A stretch of DNA of 64,000 nucleotides from Hydrogenimonas sp. SS33. GTDB lineage: Bacteria > Campylobacterota > Campylobacteria > Campylobacterales > Hydrogenimonadaceae. A program made the translations under genes and the position numbers. The stretch is from the NCBI RefSeq assembly GCF_040436365.1, contig NZ_AP026369.1, positions 1,838,501 to 1,902,500 of the forward strand, written 5' to 3'. The notes below the pieces were generated by a model. It saw only the letters and a program-made list of their open reading frames with translations, was not told the DNA's origin and did no database searches. Of this stretch, positions 35,070 to 57,475 are shown in pieces (positions within the stretch are counted from its first letter, which is position 1; every line of letters starts with the position of its first letter).

Positions 35070-35091
35070 GGTCGCTCCATAATCTAAGATA

Positions 35092-35213
35092 TTACGCAAA
35101 GCATGAGCGAAGCCCATGCTTTGGCGGGGACACAGGGTCTCCCCTGCACCTCCCTAAAGCTACGAAAACGAAGATTTCGAGAAGACGTTACGCCTTTTGC
35201 GTAACATCCGTAA
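35092..35213. repeat. structured dispersed element, copy 1
   Basis: About 122 bp closely match 57298-57416. Three hairpins can be drawn: CAAAGCATG/CATGCTTTG, GGGGA/TCCCC, and GTTACGC/GCGTAAC. Between copies the first stem changes from CATG to CTTG on one side and CATG to CAAG on the other, so pairing is kept. It lies between the divergent ilvE and aldehyde dehydrogenase genes. Confidence 0.85.
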
Positions 35214-37297: not shown

Positions 37298-37743
37298 AAG
37301 AGCGTAAAAAAAAGGCGGCCGTCAGCGCCTGCCTGGCAGGGAAAAACTGCCGGTACAACGCAGAACCGAAAGGGAATCCGCAAGTACTCAAGAAGCTGGA
37401 AAAGGAGGGGTACGAAATTCTGCTCTTCTGCCCGGAAGACGCCTGCTTCGGCACACCCAGGGAAGCGATGGACCTGACCGCCACCGAAGAGGGCGTCAAG
37501 GCCCTGACCAAATTTTCCAAAGAGGACCGCACCGGCCCCATCGCCGACTACGCGGTGCGTTTTTTCGACGAAAACCCGGATATCGACCTATTTGTCGGCA
37601 AAGCCCGAAGCCCCAGCTGCGGCGTCTGCACCGCCCGTCTCTACGACGAAGAGGGCAACCTTTTAAGCGAAAAGGAGGCGGGAATCATGGCCGCGGAAGC
37701 GAAAGCCCGCCGGATTCGCGCGGTGGACGATGAAGTAGATTAA
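37294..37743 (+). CDS. DUF523 family protein
   Basis: The 149-residue protein starts at GTG 37294, overlapping the toxin stop. Motifs SACLAGKNCRYNAE, FCPEDACFGTPRE and KARSPSCGVCTARLYD carry seven conserved-looking Cys and identify DUF523. Function unknown; a metal or cluster site is likely. Its TAA stop (37741-37743) lies inside the degenerate terminal CRISPR repeat, so the array abuts the gene. Confidence 0.88.
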   Translation: MKERKKKAAVSACLAGKNCRYNAEPKGNPQVLKKLEKEGYEILLFCPEDACFGTPREAMDLTATEEGVKALTKFSKEDRTGPIADYAVRFFDENPDIDLFVGKARSPSCGVCTARLYDEEGNLLSEKEAGIMAAEAKARRIRAVDDEVD

Positions 37744-38366
37744 CAGGCCGAGGTTTTGAGGGGTCTTAAAACCATAGCAAACGCCCTCGTGTTTTGCGAT
37801 ACATTGTAACAGGTTGGGGTTTTGAGGGGTCTTAAAACAAAAAGAGCGCGGAGACGGCCGGAGAACCCATTGTAACAGGTTGGGGTTTTGAGGGGTCTTA
37901 AAACAAGTGGGCCGACATCGACATCGAAAACAACATTGTAACAGGTTGGGGTTTTGAGGGGTCTTAAAACAACGTCGCGACCTCTTCCGCCTTCGGCTCC
38001 ATTGTAACAGGTTGGGGTTTTGAGGGGTCTTAAAACGACCAGAGGAAAACCATCCCTATCGCATAGATTGTAACAGGTTGGGGTTTTGAGGGGTCTTAAA
38101 ACGTCGGAAGCGTCCTTTCCGACGACCAGGGTATTGTAACAGGTTGGGGTTTTGAGGGGTCTTAAAACAGTAGATGTTGGAGTATTGAAGATTTTTGAAT
38201 TGTAACAGGTTGGGGTTTTGAGGGGTCTTAAAACATTACAAGTGCGTTATTTGCCATTTATGCTATTGTAACAGGTTGGGGTTTTGAGGGGTCTTAAAAC
38301 TGGCGGCCATATCACGATGGCAGGGGCGAAATTGTAACAGGTTGGGGTTTTGAGGGGTCTTAAAAC
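37737..38366 (-). CRISPR. type II-C CRISPR array, 10 repeats and 9 spacers
   Basis: The repeats are 36 bp and the spacers 29-30 bp, with starts at 37737 (degenerate), 37803, 37869, 37935, 38001, 38067, 38133, 38199, 38265 and 38331. The nine intact copies are identical. In crRNA orientation (minus strand) a repeat begins GTTTTAAGACCCC and ends CCTGTTACAAT. Its TGTTACAAT end is an extended -10 sequence, which would start transcription inside each following spacer. The first plus-strand copy is worn (TGTTAATCT instead) and overlaps the DUF523 stop, as expected for the trailer end. I found no match of a spacer elsewhere in the window. Confidence 0.98.
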
Positions 38367-38407
38367 CAATAAAAATAATTTCAATTTCAGAAAAAAATGG
38401 TTTTTTC
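38367..38407 (-). promoter_or_regulatory. leader end of the CRISPR array
   Basis: This AT-rich stretch separates the youngest repeat from the tracrRNA promoter and is the expected integration-side leader. No separate strong promoter for the array is obvious in it. Confidence 0.4.
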
Positions 38408-38437
38408 TTGCCAGTTCGCTCAAAAATACCGTATAAT
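38408..38437 (+). promoter_or_regulatory. promoter of the tracrRNA gene
   Basis: TTGCCA (38408-38413) and TATAAT (38432-38437) are 18 bp apart. A start near 38444 would produce the tracrRNA. Confidence 0.8.
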
Positions 38438-38443
38438 AGTTTT

Positions 38444-38543
38444 ATCTGTATGTAACAGGTTAGGGTTTTTCGAGGGGTCTTAAAATCAAGACCGTTACAA
38501 CGGTCCATTCTAAAACTCGCTTTCGAGCGGGTTTCCCTTTTTA
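38444..38543 (+). ncRNA. tracrRNA
   Basis: About 100 bases are transcribed opposite to the array. Bases 38451-38486 are an anti-repeat that copies the plus-strand repeat, with one substitution (GGTTAGGG), a two-base insertion (TTTTTCGAGG) and a changed last base. It would pair with the crRNA repeat apart from a bulge. A nexus-like hairpin GACCG/CGGTC (38490-38505) follows. The end is a 7-bp stem ACTCGCT/AGCGGGT with a TTCG loop (38515-38532), then TTCCCTTTTT. Confidence 0.88.
38515..38543 (+). terminator. Rho-independent terminator of the tracrRNA
   Basis: The stem ACTCGCT (38515-38521) pairs with AGCGGGT (38526-38532) across a very stable TTCG tetraloop and is followed by a T-rich tail. It reaches the 3' end of cas2, which converges from the right. 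Confidence 0.85.
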
Positions 38544-38855
38544 AAAATCGAAAAGGTTTTTTTGTTCGACTTTTTCCTGCTCGGACGACTTTCCAACAAT
38601 AATCTCCATCTTTCCATACTGCTGGTCGGTAAAGAGAATCATACGAACGTTTCCTTTCGGTATATTGACATGTAAAAATTCCTTGATTCGCTTTTTTCCG
38701 TATTTGGCGGATTCCAACGAATTGAAAACTTTGGCGTAGACGGAGTATTGCAGGCGGATAAAGCCCTGCTTGTCGAGGTAACGCGAAAGCCAGCGGTAAC
38801 GTTTGCGGTCTTTCTTGGTCTGGGTGGGGAGATCGAACATCACTACCAGCCACAT
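38541..38855 (-). CDS. cas2: CRISPR-associated endonuclease Cas2
   Basis: ATG 38855 gives a 104-residue protein, MWLVVMFDLPTQTKKDRK, with Asp8 at the family metal-binding place. The ferredoxin-like fold is visible, with RLQYSVYAKVFNS in the middle. A longer reading from 38996 would lie inside cas1 and is rejected. Cas2 bridges two Cas1 dimers during spacer capture. The start is four bases after the cas1 stop. It lies at the end of a cas9-cas1-cas2 operon. Confidence 0.95.
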   Translation of the reverse strand: MWLVVMFDLPTQTKKDRKRYRWLSRYLDKQGFIRLQYSVYAKVFNSLESAKYGKKRIKEFLHVNIPKGNVRMILFTDQQYGKMEIIVGKSSEQEKVEQKNLFDF

Positions 38856-38859
38856 GATC

Positions 38860-39774
38860 CTAAAAGCACTCACGTAGCGCCCCGAAATCGATGGTGGGGA
38901 AATGGAGCCTCTCGATATTCCTGCTTCTGACGGTGGCTTTGAACCCCTGAATATAGCGGGTAGAGACGGTACGTAGGGAGGAGAGCCCCGCCTCATAGAT
39001 CAGATATTCGCTGTCGAAAATGGAGATAATGGCCTTTTTGAACTCCGGGCTGAGGTATTCCTCCTCGTAGAGTGGGAGAAGGAGATAGACCGCAGCATCG
39101 ACGATGGGTCGAAAGGGTTCCATCAGATCGTCGCTGAGATTGAAGGCATTGTAGCGGTTGTCATGCCAGAGGCCCAGCGCGGGGAGGAAGCCTGCAGCGC
39201 TGAGGTCACGTGTGATGAGGCTACGTAAGATGGCGTAGGCGTAGTTGAGAGCCTGGTTGCGCACGTCGAGGGAGTCGGCTTCGCGCTTGAGGCCGTCGAA
39301 GAGCTCTTTCCAGTAGAGGCGGGCGCTTTTGGCTTCGGCCCCGTAGGGGTCGCCCGGACGGATCTGCTCGGCGTAGTTTTCGAGTTTGGCATTCTCTTTG
39401 GCAAAGTGTTTCAACACGGCAGACTGGTTGAGGATCTTGACCCGGATGATCTCCTGCCAGAGCCGATCGCGCAGCTCATCAGGCAGGGAGAGCTGTGCCT
39501 TGAGGGTTTCGGTGGCCAGAGAGCTCTGATGATAGGGGTGGAGGATCGCTGTGGGCATATAGTATTCGTCGCAGAAGAGGGTGGCTACCTTGTGCCTGCT
39601 GAGGGCGGAGAGGACCTTGGCGCTGAGGGTGAAACGGTCCCCCTCGAAGATGATGCTGTCGGTATCGGGCAGGGAGAGTTTGACCCTCATGGTGTCATCT
39701 TCGACGACGAGGTTTCCGTTGTCGATACTGAGCCGGCAGGGCTTAGTGATGCGGATTGTCTTCCAGGCGGCCAT
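38860..39774 (-). CDS. cas1: CRISPR-associated endonuclease Cas1
   Basis: The 304-residue integrase has the type II Cas1 pattern. The metal ligands are probably Glu147 (GAEAKSARLYW), His204 (GLWHDNRYNAFNLSDDLMEPFRP) and Asp215/216 with Glu219. It inserts new spacers at the leader end with Cas2. The start lies 32 bases inside cas9. The operon lacks csn2 and cas4, which defines subtype II-C. Confidence 0.97.
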   Translation of the reverse strand: MAAWKTIRITKPCRLSIDNGNLVVEDDTMRVKLSLPDTDSIIFEGDRFTLSAKVLSALSRHKVATLFCDEYYMPTAILHPYHQSSLATETLKAQLSLPDELRDRLWQEIIRVKILNQSAVLKHFAKENAKLENYAEQIRPGDPYGAEAKSARLYWKELFDGLKREADSLDVRNQALNYAYAILRSLITRDLSAAGFLPALGLWHDNRYNAFNLSDDLMEPFRPIVDAAVYLLLPLYEEEYLSPEFKKAIISIFDSEYLIYEAGLSSLRTVSTRYIQGFKATVRSRNIERLHFPTIDFGALRECF

Positions 39775-42700
39775 AGCCCGACTCCTCTTTGAACCAATCT
39801 ACGGCGCCGTCAGGCAATGTGCCGAAGACTTCGTAGCTCTTGACATGCCCGTCGAGATCGAGGTGGGCTTTGATGATCCCGGTGGCACTGCCGATGCTGA
39901 CCTGTTTTATTTGACTTCCTGTGCTGTATTTGGGGGGTTGAGTTTTCGGATTGGCCGGAAAACGAGGATTGAACAGTGCAATATATTTGGCTCCAGTATT
40001 TGAGATTAGAAAGCTCCTCAAACAACCATAATGGACTAGCCCCTTTGTATTGAAAATAAACAGCATCTCATTAAGGTAGCATAGCAGGCCCGATCTCTCT
40101 TTTTGGAGTTCACGGGCATTGTTGACATCCATTCGGCGGATGTGGAGTTTATCTTTGGGGCCTTTGGAGATGTGAATACCTAGCATGTTTTTATCGGTCT
40201 CCACCAGCCCCCGGTCGATCTCCATCGCATTGAGCTTATCATAGACGAAGCGCATCTTTCGTAGATGCTTGCCACCCACTTCGATGGGAGAAGCGATCAG
40301 ATCTTTGAGCGTTTGCTGGAACTCCTCGTCGATTGTCTTGTCGTTCTGGGCATCCATAAGCTGATAGCGGGTGAGGGTCTGGGCGATCTGAGCGGCGCGG
40401 GCCTCCACGGCGCGGTAGCTCTCGTCGTTGGTGTTACCAATGTGGTGGAGCCAGAGCTTTTGGCTGATCTCTTTGTCGTAACGTTTCATAAACTCCTCTG
40501 CTGAGAGTTTGTGGCGATCTTTGACGACATTGAGCCCCTCGAAGGATTCGAGGATATTTTTGCGGAGTGTGGGGACTTCGTGGCGGGCTGAATAGACGGT
40601 CTCCTTGTGGGATGAAGCGGAAAGAGGCTTTTTGTTCACCCAGTAGGAGACACTACGCACATCTCCGAACATATCCCGGTAAAAAAGGCTCTCTGGACCT
40701 TTTGACCTGAAACGGTTGTAAGCCTCGCCGATATAGTCTGCCAGTGTGAGCCCCGCGATATGGGGAGTATGTTTTTTCCAGACCTCCTTGAGCTCAGCTT
40801 CGCTTTTGCCATAATTTTCACGGAGCATCCTATGGAGGCGGTTTTGCCAGCCGCGGGTGAGTGTCGAGAGGATCAGGGCATCTTCGGCGTGGTGGAAGTT
40901 GGTCTCACGGCTTTTGGATTTGACCCCGAGAAGGGAGCGGGTCTTGCTGGTGACTTTGCCGGGGATCATGCGGACCCCTATGCCATTGCTCCTGAGATCG
41001 GGATCAGGGAAGGGATAGTAACGCTTGAGGACCTGGGCGACCAGCGCTTCGAGATAGCTGGTGGCACGAATGCCTTTGCTGTGGGTGTTCTCGGTATAGA
41101 TCTCGTCGAGAGACTCCGCGAGAAGGTTTTTGCGCTTCTTCCAGTCGATTCTACCTTCATTGAAAAGCATTTCGACTCGATTGCGATATGCGGAATCTCC
41201 GGCGAGCCAATCTCCCGGGAGGCGGTTGCCTTTGGCTGCGTTGGTGCTTTTGAGAGCGATGATGGTGTTGTAGTCAGCGCTCAGGCCTCCCAGGCTCCGG
41301 GGCACGATGTGCTCGATATCGGCACTGCCGTCCAGGAGTTGAGAGAGATTGATCATCTTTCCGGTATAGAGATCGAGCCCCTTTTGTCGCTCCCAGAGCT
41401 GGATCTTTCGCGCCAGGCGTTTGTCGATGGAGGGGAACTCTTTTTTGTATTGATTGATGATCTCATCGAGAGCTTTTTCCCTCTCTCTCATCGCTTTCTC
41501 GATCTCTTTGCGTATCTTTTCCGGAAGGGCGTCTCGGGTGGTCTCCAAGATGATCTCATCGAAGGGTCCGTAGCGCCAGCTTAGATCGGCGATGAGGCCG
41601 AGCGCCCATGAGGCGAGGGATTTGACGGCATGGTTGTTGATGATGTTGCCCTCTTTTTCAAAAAGGTTCCCTTCCCGAAGATGTAGATGGCGCAGGGATT
41701 TGGGATAGTGGGCGTAATTCTCGCTCTCTGCGAAGCCGAGAAGTTTTTGTACCTCCTTTTCGTCATACCCTTCGAGAAAGAGGGGCAGCGCTTCACAAAT
41801 ATAGCGGTGGGAGAGTTCAAGTGTGCCAGATTTTTTATTTTTGAAGAGTTCGAGAAGTTCCCGGTCCTTCGCATCGATTCCGTGAGCTGCCATCAACGCC
41901 CGAAGCCTATCCAGGGCCTCCTGCGGTGTTTTGGAACGCTGGAGGATCTCGGCAATCTGACGAAAGATCTCCTGTGCTTCAGTTTGTTTCTGGATTCGGG
42001 CAAAGAGCTCTTTGAATTTGGAAATATCGGCGAGAAAGAAAAAGGGGACGAAAGTACGGGGTTCTTTTTTACTTTTGACAATGCGTTCATCATCCTGGCC
42101 GAAGATCTTCTGATCCGGTGAAAGGCCCAGGATTTTACGTAGATCCTTGTAGGTGATCTTTTTGAGATTCTTTCCCGAAGCGATCTTCTCTTCCACCCAT
42201 TTGATGATCCGCTCCCGATCCTGTTGAGTGACATCGTAGCCATCTATATGCAGATCCGCCAGTTTTTTGTAGAGTCGGTAGAGGTCATAGAGATAGCTGT
42301 ATTTTGGAGCTGCCGTCTCCTCTTTGTAAAAGGTGCATTTGCCGAAAAGTGACTCATCTATGGTAGGCATCTCCTGATCGGTGATGCAGGCTTTGAGGTC
42401 GTCGATAAGCTCGGAGATGCGTTCGCCAGATAGTTCGATAGCCCCCAGTTCGGATTGTCGGAGGACGATCTTTTCGATCTCTTCTTCGATCTCTTCGCGC
42501 CGAATCATCTTTTCATAGTCGTCATGGTTTCTATAGGAGTGCAGATCGCCTCCCTCTACAGCCCGATGAATCGTCTGTGCGATGGTCTCTCCGCCATAGC
42601 GTTTGCGAAGCTCTTCGAGATGGCGAATGGCATTATAGACCTGTCGCCGTTCATCCGTCGATTTTCCAGATTCATTTTCCGGCTCGACAAGGCCCAGCTC

Positions 42701-43144
42701 CAGCTCCAGTTCGTAGATCAGATCTTCGGTCGCGATGGATTTGTAACCTCTATGTTTGGCCATGTGGGCGAGAATCGCGAACAACTCCTCTGGACTGAGA
42801 GCGCGTTCCCATGCATCCACGGCCCGCAGTTGCCAACGGTTTTTGATGGGATTGTTTTGTGGGGAATTGACCTGCATCGCCCGATCGTAGCTGAGAAGAC
42901 CGTATCGATCCATCGTTTGGGCGACACATCGGATGCGTTTTTTGCGTTTTTCGATCAAAGTTCGCATACTACGCTGAGTGGCACGGGTGGATTGGGAAGA
43001 TTCTCCGCTCTTCTCGTCGTACGGGCTATCCCGCATAATGACAGAGTTGTCAAGACAGCGATAGGAGTTGTCTCCCGACTTTTCTAAAATGGCGTAACCG
43101 AAAGACGTGATTCCTAAGTCCACACCTAAAATTAATTTACTCAT
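39743..43144 (-). CDS. cas9: type II-C Cas9 nuclease, Nitratifractor-like
   Basis: The 1133-residue protein holds all nuclease residues: RuvC-I Asp9 (GVDLGITSFGYAI), RuvC-II Glu534 (IILETTRDA), HNH His612 (ADIEHIVPRSLGG) with Asn626 and Asn635, and RuvC-III His751/His752 and Asp755 (HHAEDALILS). An Arg/Lys-rich bridge helix lies at about 56-75. The length and long stretches of sequence agree, from memory, with Nitratifractor salsuginis Cas9 (1132 residues). Base composition is visibly lower in GC than the flanking housekeeping genes, which fits horizontal transfer. The upstream region is AT-rich; no promoter is assigned. Confidence 0.97.
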   Translation of the reverse strand: MSKLILGVDLGITSFGYAILEKSGDNSYRCLDNSVIMRDSPYDEKSGESSQSTRATQRSMRTLIEKRKKRIRCVAQTMDRYGLLSYDRAMQVNSPQNNPIKNRWQLRAVDAWERALSPEELFAILAHMAKHRGYKSIATEDLIYELELELGLVEPENESGKSTDERRQVYNAIRHLEELRKRYGGETIAQTIHRAVEGGDLHSYRNHDDYEKMIRREEIEEEIEKIVLRQSELGAIELSGERISELIDDLKACITDQEMPTIDESLFGKCTFYKEETAAPKYSYLYDLYRLYKKLADLHIDGYDVTQQDRERIIKWVEEKIASGKNLKKITYKDLRKILGLSPDQKIFGQDDERIVKSKKEPRTFVPFFFLADISKFKELFARIQKQTEAQEIFRQIAEILQRSKTPQEALDRLRALMAAHGIDAKDRELLELFKNKKSGTLELSHRYICEALPLFLEGYDEKEVQKLLGFAESENYAHYPKSLRHLHLREGNLFEKEGNIINNHAVKSLASWALGLIADLSWRYGPFDEIILETTRDALPEKIRKEIEKAMREREKALDEIINQYKKEFPSIDKRLARKIQLWERQKGLDLYTGKMINLSQLLDGSADIEHIVPRSLGGLSADYNTIIALKSTNAAKGNRLPGDWLAGDSAYRNRVEMLFNEGRIDWKKRKNLLAESLDEIYTENTHSKGIRATSYLEALVAQVLKRYYPFPDPDLRSNGIGVRMIPGKVTSKTRSLLGVKSKSRETNFHHAEDALILSTLTRGWQNRLHRMLRENYGKSEAELKEVWKKHTPHIAGLTLADYIGEAYNRFRSKGPESLFYRDMFGDVRSVSYWVNKKPLSASSHKETVYSARHEVPTLRKNILESFEGLNVVKDRHKLSAEEFMKRYDKEISQKLWLHHIGNTNDESYRAVEARAAQIAQTLTRYQLMDAQNDKTIDEEFQQTLKDLIASPIEVGGKHLRKMRFVYDKLNAMEIDRGLVETDKNMLGIHISKGPKDKLHIRRMDVNNARELQKERSGLLCYLNEMLFIFNTKGLVHYGCLRSFLISNTGAKYIALFNPRFPANPKTQPPKYSTGSQIKQVSIGSATGIIKAHLDLDGHVKSYEVFGTLPDGAVDWFKEESGYGRLEDNPHH

Positions 43145-43931: not shown

Positions 43932-45028
43932 TGTCAAGTTCCACCACGTTGTTCAAGCCAGAGCAATGTGTCGGCTTCGAACATCTCAGGGGATTTTCTG
44001 AATAGTTCAGGTTCCAGATTATACCAATAGTGTAGTGCTTCAAAGGGTGTTTTGACTTTCAGTTCTTTTCTGAGACCTCCATGGCGTCTGCTGAAGAGAT
44101 AATAGAGCAGGAACTTGTCCAAATCGACAATCATCTGCTGCAGATTCTCATAGTTCTGTATTTTGATGGTTCGCTCCTTAATGAGCCCGTTGGCCCGTTC
44201 GACCATCCCGTTGGTTTGCGGGCAAAAGGGTTTCGTGAGGCGATGGTCGATGTTGAATGCCCTGCAGAGCTTGTCGAAACGATGATTGCCGGTGGGGTCC
44301 TTGCGTCCCTGGCTGAAGCGATCCGTAAACTCCATTCCGTTATCGGTCAGAATATGGGTGATGGTAAATGGAAAGAAGTGTTCACACTCTTTGAGAAAAT
44401 CGAGGGCGCTGGCGGCACTTTTGCTTCGATAGACTTTGTAATAGAGCAACCGTGTCGCCCGGTCGATGGCTACGAAGAGATAGTATTTGACGCCATCGAT
44501 CTTGGGAAGATAGGTCACATCCATATGCACGAAGCCCGGAACATACTCTTTGAACTTTTTTGCTTTGGCACGTTCTTCCTGGGGAACCTGGCTGATCTTC
44601 AAGGCTCTCAGGGTCCGAGAAACCGTGGAGCGGCTGGCATGGGGCATGACACTCTGCAGGGCCTCTACCAGATCGTCCAGCGGCATCCAGGTACTGGTCC
44701 GCACAAGGCGCACAAGCTCCCGCTCCAAACCACTCAATGCATAATGAATCGTATGGGGCCGGCTACTGCGATCTTCCGTCTCCTGGCGATGACGCCACTT
44801 ACTGACGGTCTGGACACTGATACCGAAGCGTCGAGCCAACGCTTGATTGCTCGCTCCGGATTTCTGTATACTTTGGCGCACATGCGAGTTGGTCCTCGCA
44901 TTGCGATGGTAGTGCTGTTTCATCTCTCTTTTGCCTTGATTCGAGATGTCTCAGCCTACCAACTTCTCTCTTCGAAGTCAGTATGGAACCCTACCTCTCT
45001 TTCATCAACAACGTGGTGAAACTGGACA
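43932..45028 (-). mobile_element. IS481-family insertion sequence, 1097 bp
   Basis: The terminal inverted repeats are 22 bp with two mismatches: left TGTCAAGTTCCACC..., right (complement) TGTCCAGTTTCACC..., both ending CACGTTGTT. Direct TTTAAG repeats at 43926-43931 and 45029-45034 are the target duplication. It carries one intact transposase gene and interrupts an unknown gene. The perfect target duplication suggests a recent insertion. Confidence 0.95.
43934..44923 (-). CDS. IS481-family DDE transposase
   Basis: The 329-residue protein has an N-terminal helix-turn-helix (about 21-48; [18 protein letters not shown]) and an rve/DDE core, with Asp135 (HMDVTYLP), Asp194 (ILTDNGMEF) and Glu242 (NGMVERANG). 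The stop codon lies within the left terminal repeat. The frame is intact, so the element may still be active. Confidence 0.95.
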   Translation of the reverse strand: MKQHYHRNARTNSHVRQSIQKSGASNQALARRFGISVQTVSKWRHRQETEDRSSRPHTIHYALSGLERELVRLVRTSTWMPLDDLVEALQSVMPHASRSTVSRTLRALKISQVPQEERAKAKKFKEYVPGFVHMDVTYLPKIDGVKYYLFVAIDRATRLLYYKVYRSKSAASALDFLKECEHFFPFTITHILTDNGMEFTDRFSQGRKDPTGNHRFDKLCRAFNIDHRLTKPFCPQTNGMVERANGLIKERTIKIQNYENLQQMIVDLDKFLLYYLFSRRHGGLRKELKVKTPFEALHYWYNLEPELFRKSPEMFEADTLLWLEQRGGT

Positions 45029-56298: not shown

Positions 56299-57294
56299 TT
56301 GGCACTCAAAATCGCTATCAACGGATACGGGCGCATCGGACGGAGCGTGGCCCGCATCGTCTCCAAACGCGACGATGTGGAGCTGGTCGCCGTCAACGAC
56401 CTGGCCCCCTCCGGGACCCTACTCTACCTGACCAATTTCGACTCGGTTCACGGGCCCCTCGACGAAGAGGCGACACTGGAAGGGGAGGTGCTTCATCTGG
56501 CCGGGCAGCGGGTCAGGCTTTTTCACGAACCCGACCCCGCCGACCTCCGTTTCGCCGATGCCGGCGCCGAAGTGGTGCTGGAGTGCACGGGCCGGCATCT
56601 TCGCGGCGACATCGTCCGGTGCCACATCCGCCACGGCGCGAAAAGGGTCATCATCTCCGCCCCCGCCGAAGACGAGACGCCTACCTACGTTCTCGGGGTC
56701 AACGCCCACACCTACAAGGGGGAAGATGTCATCTCCAACGCCAGCTGCACCACCAACTGCCTCGCTCCCATCGCCAAAGTGCTCGATGAGATCTACGGCA
56801 TCCGCACGGGGCTAATGACCACCATTCACGCCTACACCGGCGGGCAGAATCTGATGGATGCCCCCACCCATACCGACCTTCGCCGCTGCCGGGCCGCGGC
56901 GGTGAACCTGGTCCCCACCACGACCCACGCCGCCTGGGCCGTCTACAAGGTGCTCCCCTCCCTCAGGGGAAAACTCCACGGCCAGAGTGTCCGTGTCCCC
57001 ACGCCGGATGTTTCGCTGATGGACCTGGATGTGGTACTGGAGAGGGGAACGAGTGCCGAGGAGGTGAACCTGCTTTTTACCGAAAAGGCAAAAGGGGAGC
57101 TGAAAGGCATACTGGGGGTCGACACCCGCTACGGCGTCAGCCAGGATTTCTGCGGCGACCCGCGCAGCGCCATCGTCTCGGCTGACCTGACCCAGGTGAT
57201 CGGCGAAAACATGCTCAAGGTGATGGCGTGGTACGACAATGAATGGGGGTATGCCAACCGCCTGGTGGAGATGGCACTGCATATAACGAACTGA
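56299..57294 (+). CDS. gap: glyceraldehyde-3-phosphate dehydrogenase
   Basis: TTG 56299 with GGAGG five bases upstream gives MALKIAINGYGRIGR, the usual start; upstream ATGs are rejected. The 331-residue enzyme has the catalytic Cys150 (SNASCTTNC) and a C-terminal WYDNEWGYANR. Residues 32-36 (VNDLA) at the end of the second strand suggest NAD preference. It starts the gap-pgk-tpiA glycolysis/gluconeogenesis cluster; a copy of the dispersed element separates it from pgk. Confidence 0.97.
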   Translation: MALKIAINGYGRIGRSVARIVSKRDDVELVAVNDLAPSGTLLYLTNFDSVHGPLDEEATLEGEVLHLAGQRVRLFHEPDPADLRFADAGAEVVLECTGRHLRGDIVRCHIRHGAKRVIISAPAEDETPTYVLGVNAHTYKGEDVISNASCTTNCLAPIAKVLDEIYGIRTGLMTTIHAYTGGQNLMDAPTHTDLRRCRAAAVNLVPTTTHAAWAVYKVLPSLRGKLHGQSVRVPTPDVSLMDLDVVLERGTSAEEVNLLFTEKAKGELKGILGVDTRYGVSQDFCGDPRSAIVSADLTQVIGENMLKVMAWYDNEWGYANRLVEMALHITN

Positions 57295-57297
57295 AGT

Positions 57298-57416
57298 TAT
57301 GCAAAGCTTGAGCAAAGCCCAAGCTTTGGCGGGGACTGACCGTCCCCTGCACCCCCCTAAAGCTTCAAAATCGAAGATTTCGAGATGACGTTACGCCTTT
57401 TGCGTAACGTCTGTAA
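57298..57416. repeat. structured dispersed element, copy 2
   Basis: About 119 bp match 35092-35213. Hairpins: CAAAGCTTG/CAAGCTTTG, GGGGAC/GTCCCC and GTTACGC/GCGTAAC. It lies between gap and pgk, directly after the gap stop, and would be in the 3' UTR or in the pgk leader. Confidence 0.85.
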
Positions 57417-57475
57417 CGAAATAATTACACAATCTATGGCAAAATTGAACCGATAGACTTTCTCAAAGGATACCG

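Follow-up and report, generated by a model that had tools for sequence, protein, structure and literature searches.

What is a repeat of about 120 bp that lies twice, in unrelated surroundings, within one stretch of the Hydrogenimonas sp. SS33 genome? The stretch analysed (the window) is 64,000 nucleotides long and corresponds to C1:1838501-1902500 of a complete genome of 2,254,567 bp. A sequence-only reading of the window had claimed two similar copies, and had taken them for either a selected RNA or DNA structure or a non-autonomous mobile element. Both copies exist, with 86% identity over ~122 bp, and their ends are now placed at 35086-35210 and 57291-57413, as defined from the terminal repeats and target duplications of the whole family. 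The settings were described correctly, copy 1 lying between divergent ilvE-type and aldehyde-dehydrogenase genes and copy 2 between gap and pgk. As for the choice between structure and mobile element, both are supported together: mobility by terminal inverted repeats (TIRs), a 7-bp duplication, ~90-100 copies and empty sites, and structure by covariation across genera.

Copy 1 (35086-35210, 125 bp; blastn and covariance-model match G000:C1:1873586-1873710) is given on the + strand, as are all its parts. Hairpin H1 (35097-35123), CAAAGCATG-AGC-GAA-GCC-CATGCTTTG, is assigned from the fold and from cross-genus covariation, and hairpin H2 (35124-35147), GCGGGGAC...TCCCCTGC, from fold and covariation. 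They are followed by a conserved linker (35148-35159), ACCTCCCTAAAG, for which the family consensus is CAACCCCCTAAAGCT, by hairpin H3 (35160-35181; family fold and covariation), and by hairpin H4 with the 3′ TIR (35184-35210), GACGTTACGCCTTTTGCGTAACATCCG. The 5′ end is decayed, with AAGATA in place of CTGATG. The flanks match at 2 of 7 positions and no clear target duplication is left, which is consistent with age. Its neighbours are ilvE on one side and, on the other, a conserved promoter-like sequence, TTTTATCTTATAAT.

Copy 2 (57291-57413, +, 123 bp; covariance-model match G000:C1:1895791-1895913) is bordered on both sides by the target-site duplication TAACGAA (57284-57290 and 57414-57420). 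On the + strand it carries H1 (57302-57328), CAAAGCTTG...CAAGCTTTG, and H2 (57329-57350), both from fold and covariation, the linker (57351-57362), ACCCCCCTAAAG, H3 (57363-57384; family fold and covariation), and H4 with the 3′ TIR (57387-57413; family ends and fold). Its first bases complete gap, contributing the gene's last base and its stop codon (...HITN*; ...ITK* in the related G017). The pairing GTTACGC...GCGTAAC, which had been read as the stem closing the element, is instead the local hairpin of the 3′ end, H4. The complementarity seen between the two ends is genuine, as the outer arm of H4 is the 3′ TIR and pairs with TTACGCAAA at the 5′ end.

Blastn locates the repeat at 40 or more genomic sites, each of 40 at E <=1.2e-28. 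A covariance model trained on 28 copies, a search proposed in the sequence-only reading, gives ~100 matches at E <= 0.01, and chance is excluded by these numbers. Copy statistics were obtained from the best 89 of the ~100 matches, extracted with their flanks. The 2.25-Mb genome thus holds at least 89 strong copies, about 90-100 in total, and the changes among the many copies mostly preserve the stems. The length is typically 122-125 bp, with variants up to 166 bp. According to a simple gene caller 84 of the 89 copies are intergenic, though ~89% of the window is coding. No bias is observed in orientation relative to neighbouring genes (++ 24, -- 31), and none toward a replication half or strand (p 0.29, with the origin assumed near base 1). 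In the public collection, the contigs that bear the repeat belong to Hydrogenimonas MAGs. A subfamily of ~134 bp (G000:C1:1999578, 1758070, 1767618, 219371 and others) retains TIRs and duplications but has AAAAGATTTTATGGTCTCCC where H2 would end and the linker begin. In G001 and G006 (L243, L239, L245) the element occurs in tandem arrays, repeated about every 120 bp with a recurring short junction, e.g. GCCATCC.

Full copies start with CTGAYGTTACGCAAA and finish with its inverted complement, giving TIRs of ~13-16 bp. When the two flanks of each copy were compared across lengths k, a signal was obtained only at k=7 (z 10.4; other lengths z <=3.1), with a mean identity of 0.515 against 0.339 in mispaired flanks. 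The check for target duplications suggested from the two copies therefore ends in a duplication of fixed length. Thirteen of the 7-bp duplications are perfect, and 27 of 89 copies match at 6/7 or better where ~1 is expected (~1% of mispaired flanks). Direct repeats of 7-9 bp have been described for QMITE2 of Coxiella (PMC10969869). The insertion targets are mostly A+T-rich intergenic DNA, and no gene lies within the element.

Comparison with related genomes also points to insertion. The empty site implied for copy 2, ...ATAACGAAATAA, matches ...ATAACGAAATAG in the relative G017, and the gap-pgk junction is short and empty in 16 of 17 relatives. The exception, G002 (L192), has an independent insertion between gap and pgk with a related core and different ends. 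Similarly, copy 1 is absent from the ilvE-aldehyde dehydrogenase site in 14 of 14 relatives, all of which keep the promoter-like sequence. Among the genomes compared, only this species carries the two window copies at these positions.

The TIRs, the 7-bp duplications and the absence at orthologous sites in relatives identify the element, with high probability, as a non-autonomous DNA transposon of the MITE type, ~123 bp long. Prokaryotic MITEs are shorter than 500 bp and carry TIRs and direct target repeats that become indistinct in older copies (PMC10969869). The Hydrogenimonas element is likewise below 500 bp, its TIRs fall in the range of ~4-30 bp, its young copies have direct target repeats, orthologous sites lack it, and intergenic DNA is preferred. 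It is not A+T-rich, a composition that is typical of MITEs but not obligatory.

Palindromes of the REP or REPIN kind, moved by a tyrosine transposase (RAYT, IS200/IS605-type), would also be intergenic, rich in hairpins and present in high copy number. Transposition of the IS200/IS605 type produces no target duplication, and the fixed 7-bp duplication contradicts such an origin. REPs measure 20-40 bp and bear an unpaired tetranucleotide tag, whereas the present element is 123 bp long, has TIRs and lacks an unpaired tag. REP families of the GTAG and CGTC types are reported in the same phylum, in Sulfurovum sp. NBC37-1 (PMC3733652). Even so, we consider this explanation very improbable.

A MITE would require a transposase supplied in trans, and a scan for terminal repeats revealed a second family that bears on it. 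This family is 269 bp long, has the TIR CTGATGTTACGCAGTATAT, and its interior is unrelated and largely palindromic. Copies are located at G000:C1:334174-334442, 951526-951794 and 1397058-1397326, together with other pairs, and 7-bp duplications are present at 334174 (TTAAAAA) and 1397058 (TTTTTAA). Elements with the ends of the 269-bp family and similar length were detected in G002 (L156), G004 (L240) and G016 (L154), and G002 has further short elements that share ends and differ in their interiors. An unrelated element that shares the ends and 7-bp duplications of the repeat points to one transposase acting in trans. G002 also has 24-bp sequences such as CTGATGTTACGCAGTATACATCAG (L303:3041, L309:2995, L310:3064, L311:3007, L312:3052), which look as if both ends of the 269-bp element had been fused and are possible footprints of excision or deletion.

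The TIR searches for the transposase covered 32 genomes. No transposase gene flanked by CTGATGTTACGCA ends was found at the TIR sites examined in related genomes, and Pfam scans of the proteins beside lone TIRs returned ordinary genes or no family. All exact TIR matches in the SS33 genome belong to the 123-bp or 269-bp families. DDE_Tnp_1 (PF01609), searched across the genus, was not found in SS33 or G002. The window itself has an IS481-like transposase gene (43934-44923, - strand, 329 aa; NF033577 220.3 bits, just below the cut-off of 224). This gene was rejected as a partner, for the IS481-family ends TGTC..AGTT (possible ends TGTCAAGTT / AACTGGACA) are unrelated to those of the repeat. It adjoins a CRISPR-cas locus (37737-43144) in which an array of about ten 36-nt repeats with a period of 66 bp adjoins cas genes: a type II Cas1 (38860-39774, -), next to the array, and a Cas9 of 1133 aa (39743-43144, -; TIGR01865 E 9e-118). 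Elsewhere in the window, positions 1-276 and 1393-1668 are 276-nt direct repeats with 99% identity.

The element also has a structured core. Both strands of both window copies fold better than 200 of 200 shuffles (z -4.2 to -8.0). In the first comparison of the two copies, the paired change AAAGCATG/CATGCTTT versus AAAGCTTG/CAAGCTTT was taken as a sign of a selected structure or a mobile element. The compensation is real, but by itself it is insufficient: it separates two subfamilies in the genome and may be a single inherited event. The RNAalifold covariation term within the SS33 genome is near zero (-0.07). The copies there are too alike to test the structure, and the structural claim is therefore based on cross-genus alignments, in which many compensations appear beyond that single difference. 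An alignment of 23 diverse cores reaches a covariation score of 0.319, compared with 0.121 after shuffling (0/500 reaching it) and at most 0.114 with slid partners. For a 49-sequence alignment the score is 0.526, where shuffling gives 0.141 and slid partners at most 0.082; 95.8% of its cells pair, and 24 of 28 base pairs are altered on both sides. This alignment was fitted to the core model and leans towards structure, and an unfitted MAFFT alignment gives the same answer. The 14-nt linker, consensus CAACCCCCTAAAGCT, is nearly invariant across genera, nearly all of its columns being identical in at least 46 of 49 sequences.

Stems may also remain paired for mutational reasons. Template switching in replication can symmetrise quasi-palindromes in DNA, and compensation would then arise unselected. 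The double changes in H1 and H2, with very few one-sided G-T intermediates, look as if one arm had been copied to the other. Arm-to-arm copying would be expected to correct an imperfection near the H1 loop, an A opposite a C at an inner position, which is instead retained by 39 of 49 sequences from different families; in addition, the unpaired linker is conserved to the same degree as the stems vary. We regard symmetrisation as a rather unlikely explanation of the fold, and at most as a contributing route.

The mismatches carry a hint as to which strand folds. On the + strand, A.C mismatches outnumber G.T by 39 to 8 across genera, and by 79 to 44 within the SS33 genome, where the nominal p of 0.002 applies to copies that are related. 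The A opposite C at the inner H1 position belongs to the same pattern. Since an A.C on the given strand is a G.U on the other, the folding strand may be the complementary one, as RNA or single-stranded DNA, which is a lead rather than a result. The same observation could favour a dispersed RNA with a regulatory or processing role (riboswitch, terminator, sRNA or mRNA-stability element) under host selection and only incidentally mobile. The minus strand folds equally well or better, the covariation is strong, and the single-stranded linker is almost invariant, all of which would suit such an RNA. Set against it are the species-specific window positions, the unbiased orientation relative to neighbouring genes, the lack of phylogenetic independence in the mismatch counts, and the Rfam 15 covariance models, none of which matches at the gathering threshold or at E up to 1. 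A host-selected RNA is in our judgment improbable.

The core is widespread. The core model (R2) was found in 63 of 397 Campylobacteria genomes, belonging to 17 of 68 genera and several families, and core-positive genomes often have at least 11 scored copies each. Copies in other families with both TIRs have perfect 7-bp duplications in G050 (TTATACA), G365 (TTTTATT) and G043 (TTATATA), and the duplication matches at 6/7 in G265, G229, G210 and G325, also from other families. The G+C content of the core is 0.51-0.66 in Hydrogenimonas copies and mostly 0.40-0.53 in most other families. Among the plasmid and phage collections searched, one copy was found on a plasmid and none in phages, and the viral contigs searched had no copies. 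The plasmid copy, on pSULKU01 of Sulfuricurvum kujiense (NC_014754.1; L319:6009-6097), has the core and a recognisable 3′ TIR, GTGCGTAAGGTCAG, with an Rrf2 regulator on one side and a TolC gene on the other. Such a plasmid copy is a possible vehicle between species. No published description of the repeat was found in the open-access literature searched.

Both SS33 and other families have some copies in which the core is kept while the TIRs are poor or missing. For instance, four SS33 copies without the 3′ TIR (C1:997915, 2134314, 299148, 499843) carry exactly at the position of H4 an unrelated perfect hairpin of 8-10 bp; in the control, 0 of 78 stretches reach 7 bp. Such hairpins in TIR-less copies are not predicted by a plain MITE model.

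How the MITE-type element may move can be proposed as follows. A transposase that is encoded elsewhere, or was once present, would recognise the shared ends, make cuts staggered by 7 nt, and move every element carrying such ends. The core fold and the CCCCCTAAAGCT linker would be kept since copies retaining them multiply more often. The fold may be needed for transposition or protect it, and we infer such a requirement for mobility; a need of the host for each copy would not be the reason. A further-reaching proposal is that the repeats form an ancient, phylum-wide, gene-less mobile family, in which a folded single strand with the invariant CCCCCTAAAGCT linker is the substrate of an undiscovered and possibly host-encoded mobility enzyme. 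The element would then be a selfish structured nucleic acid and not a crippled IS, and the folded strand would probably be the complement of the given strand, as RNA or single-stranded DNA. We offer this proposal tentatively and expect the odds to be against it.

Among known systems, NEMIS and RUP duplicate TA upon insertion, in contrast to the 7 bp observed here. The comparison with bcr1, NEMIS, RUP, BOX and ERIC covered copy size, ends and duplication length, taken from published descriptions and background knowledge. Correia/NEMIS, RUP, BOX and ERIC resemble it as short non-autonomous intergenic hairpin repeats, some of which are mobilised in trans via their ends (PMC3733652). The closest in overall character, as far as descriptions allow comparison, is bcr1 of the Bacillus cereus group, ~150 bp, structured, in high copy and with features of a mobile element (PMC2267715, PMC3733652). 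By the title of its source paper, bcr1 is confined to one species group, whereas the present core occurs in 17 genera. The GTAG and CGTC REPs are likewise intergenic palindromes present in Campylobacterota, the CGTC type also being without a known transposase (PMC3733652), but they differ in size, in their unpaired tag, and in having neither inverted terminal repeats nor a fixed target duplication. The likeness to prokaryotic MITEs extends to the size below 500 bp, TIRs, target repeats, intergenic location, foldability and the want of a transposase gene (PMC10969869). Unlike typical A+T-rich MITEs, the Hydrogenimonas element is G+C-rich. Its interior has been maintained, through covariation, in different genera and families, where the usual MITE is left over, at the species level, from a deletion in one IS, and no parent IS was found around the TIR sites examined.

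The usual view of a bacterial MITE is that it arose recently, by deletion from one IS, and is bound to one species. In the present case the fold, the linker, the ends and the 7-bp duplication are met again in different families of Campylobacteria, and the stems have diverged in all but their pairing. Which enzyme moves these elements, and whether it needs the fold, thereby becomes a testable question. The family, which is missing from Rfam, may provide strain markers for vent bacteria. The elements also reshape intergenic DNA, as gap takes its stop codon from copy 2 and copy 1 lies beside a promoter-like sequence.
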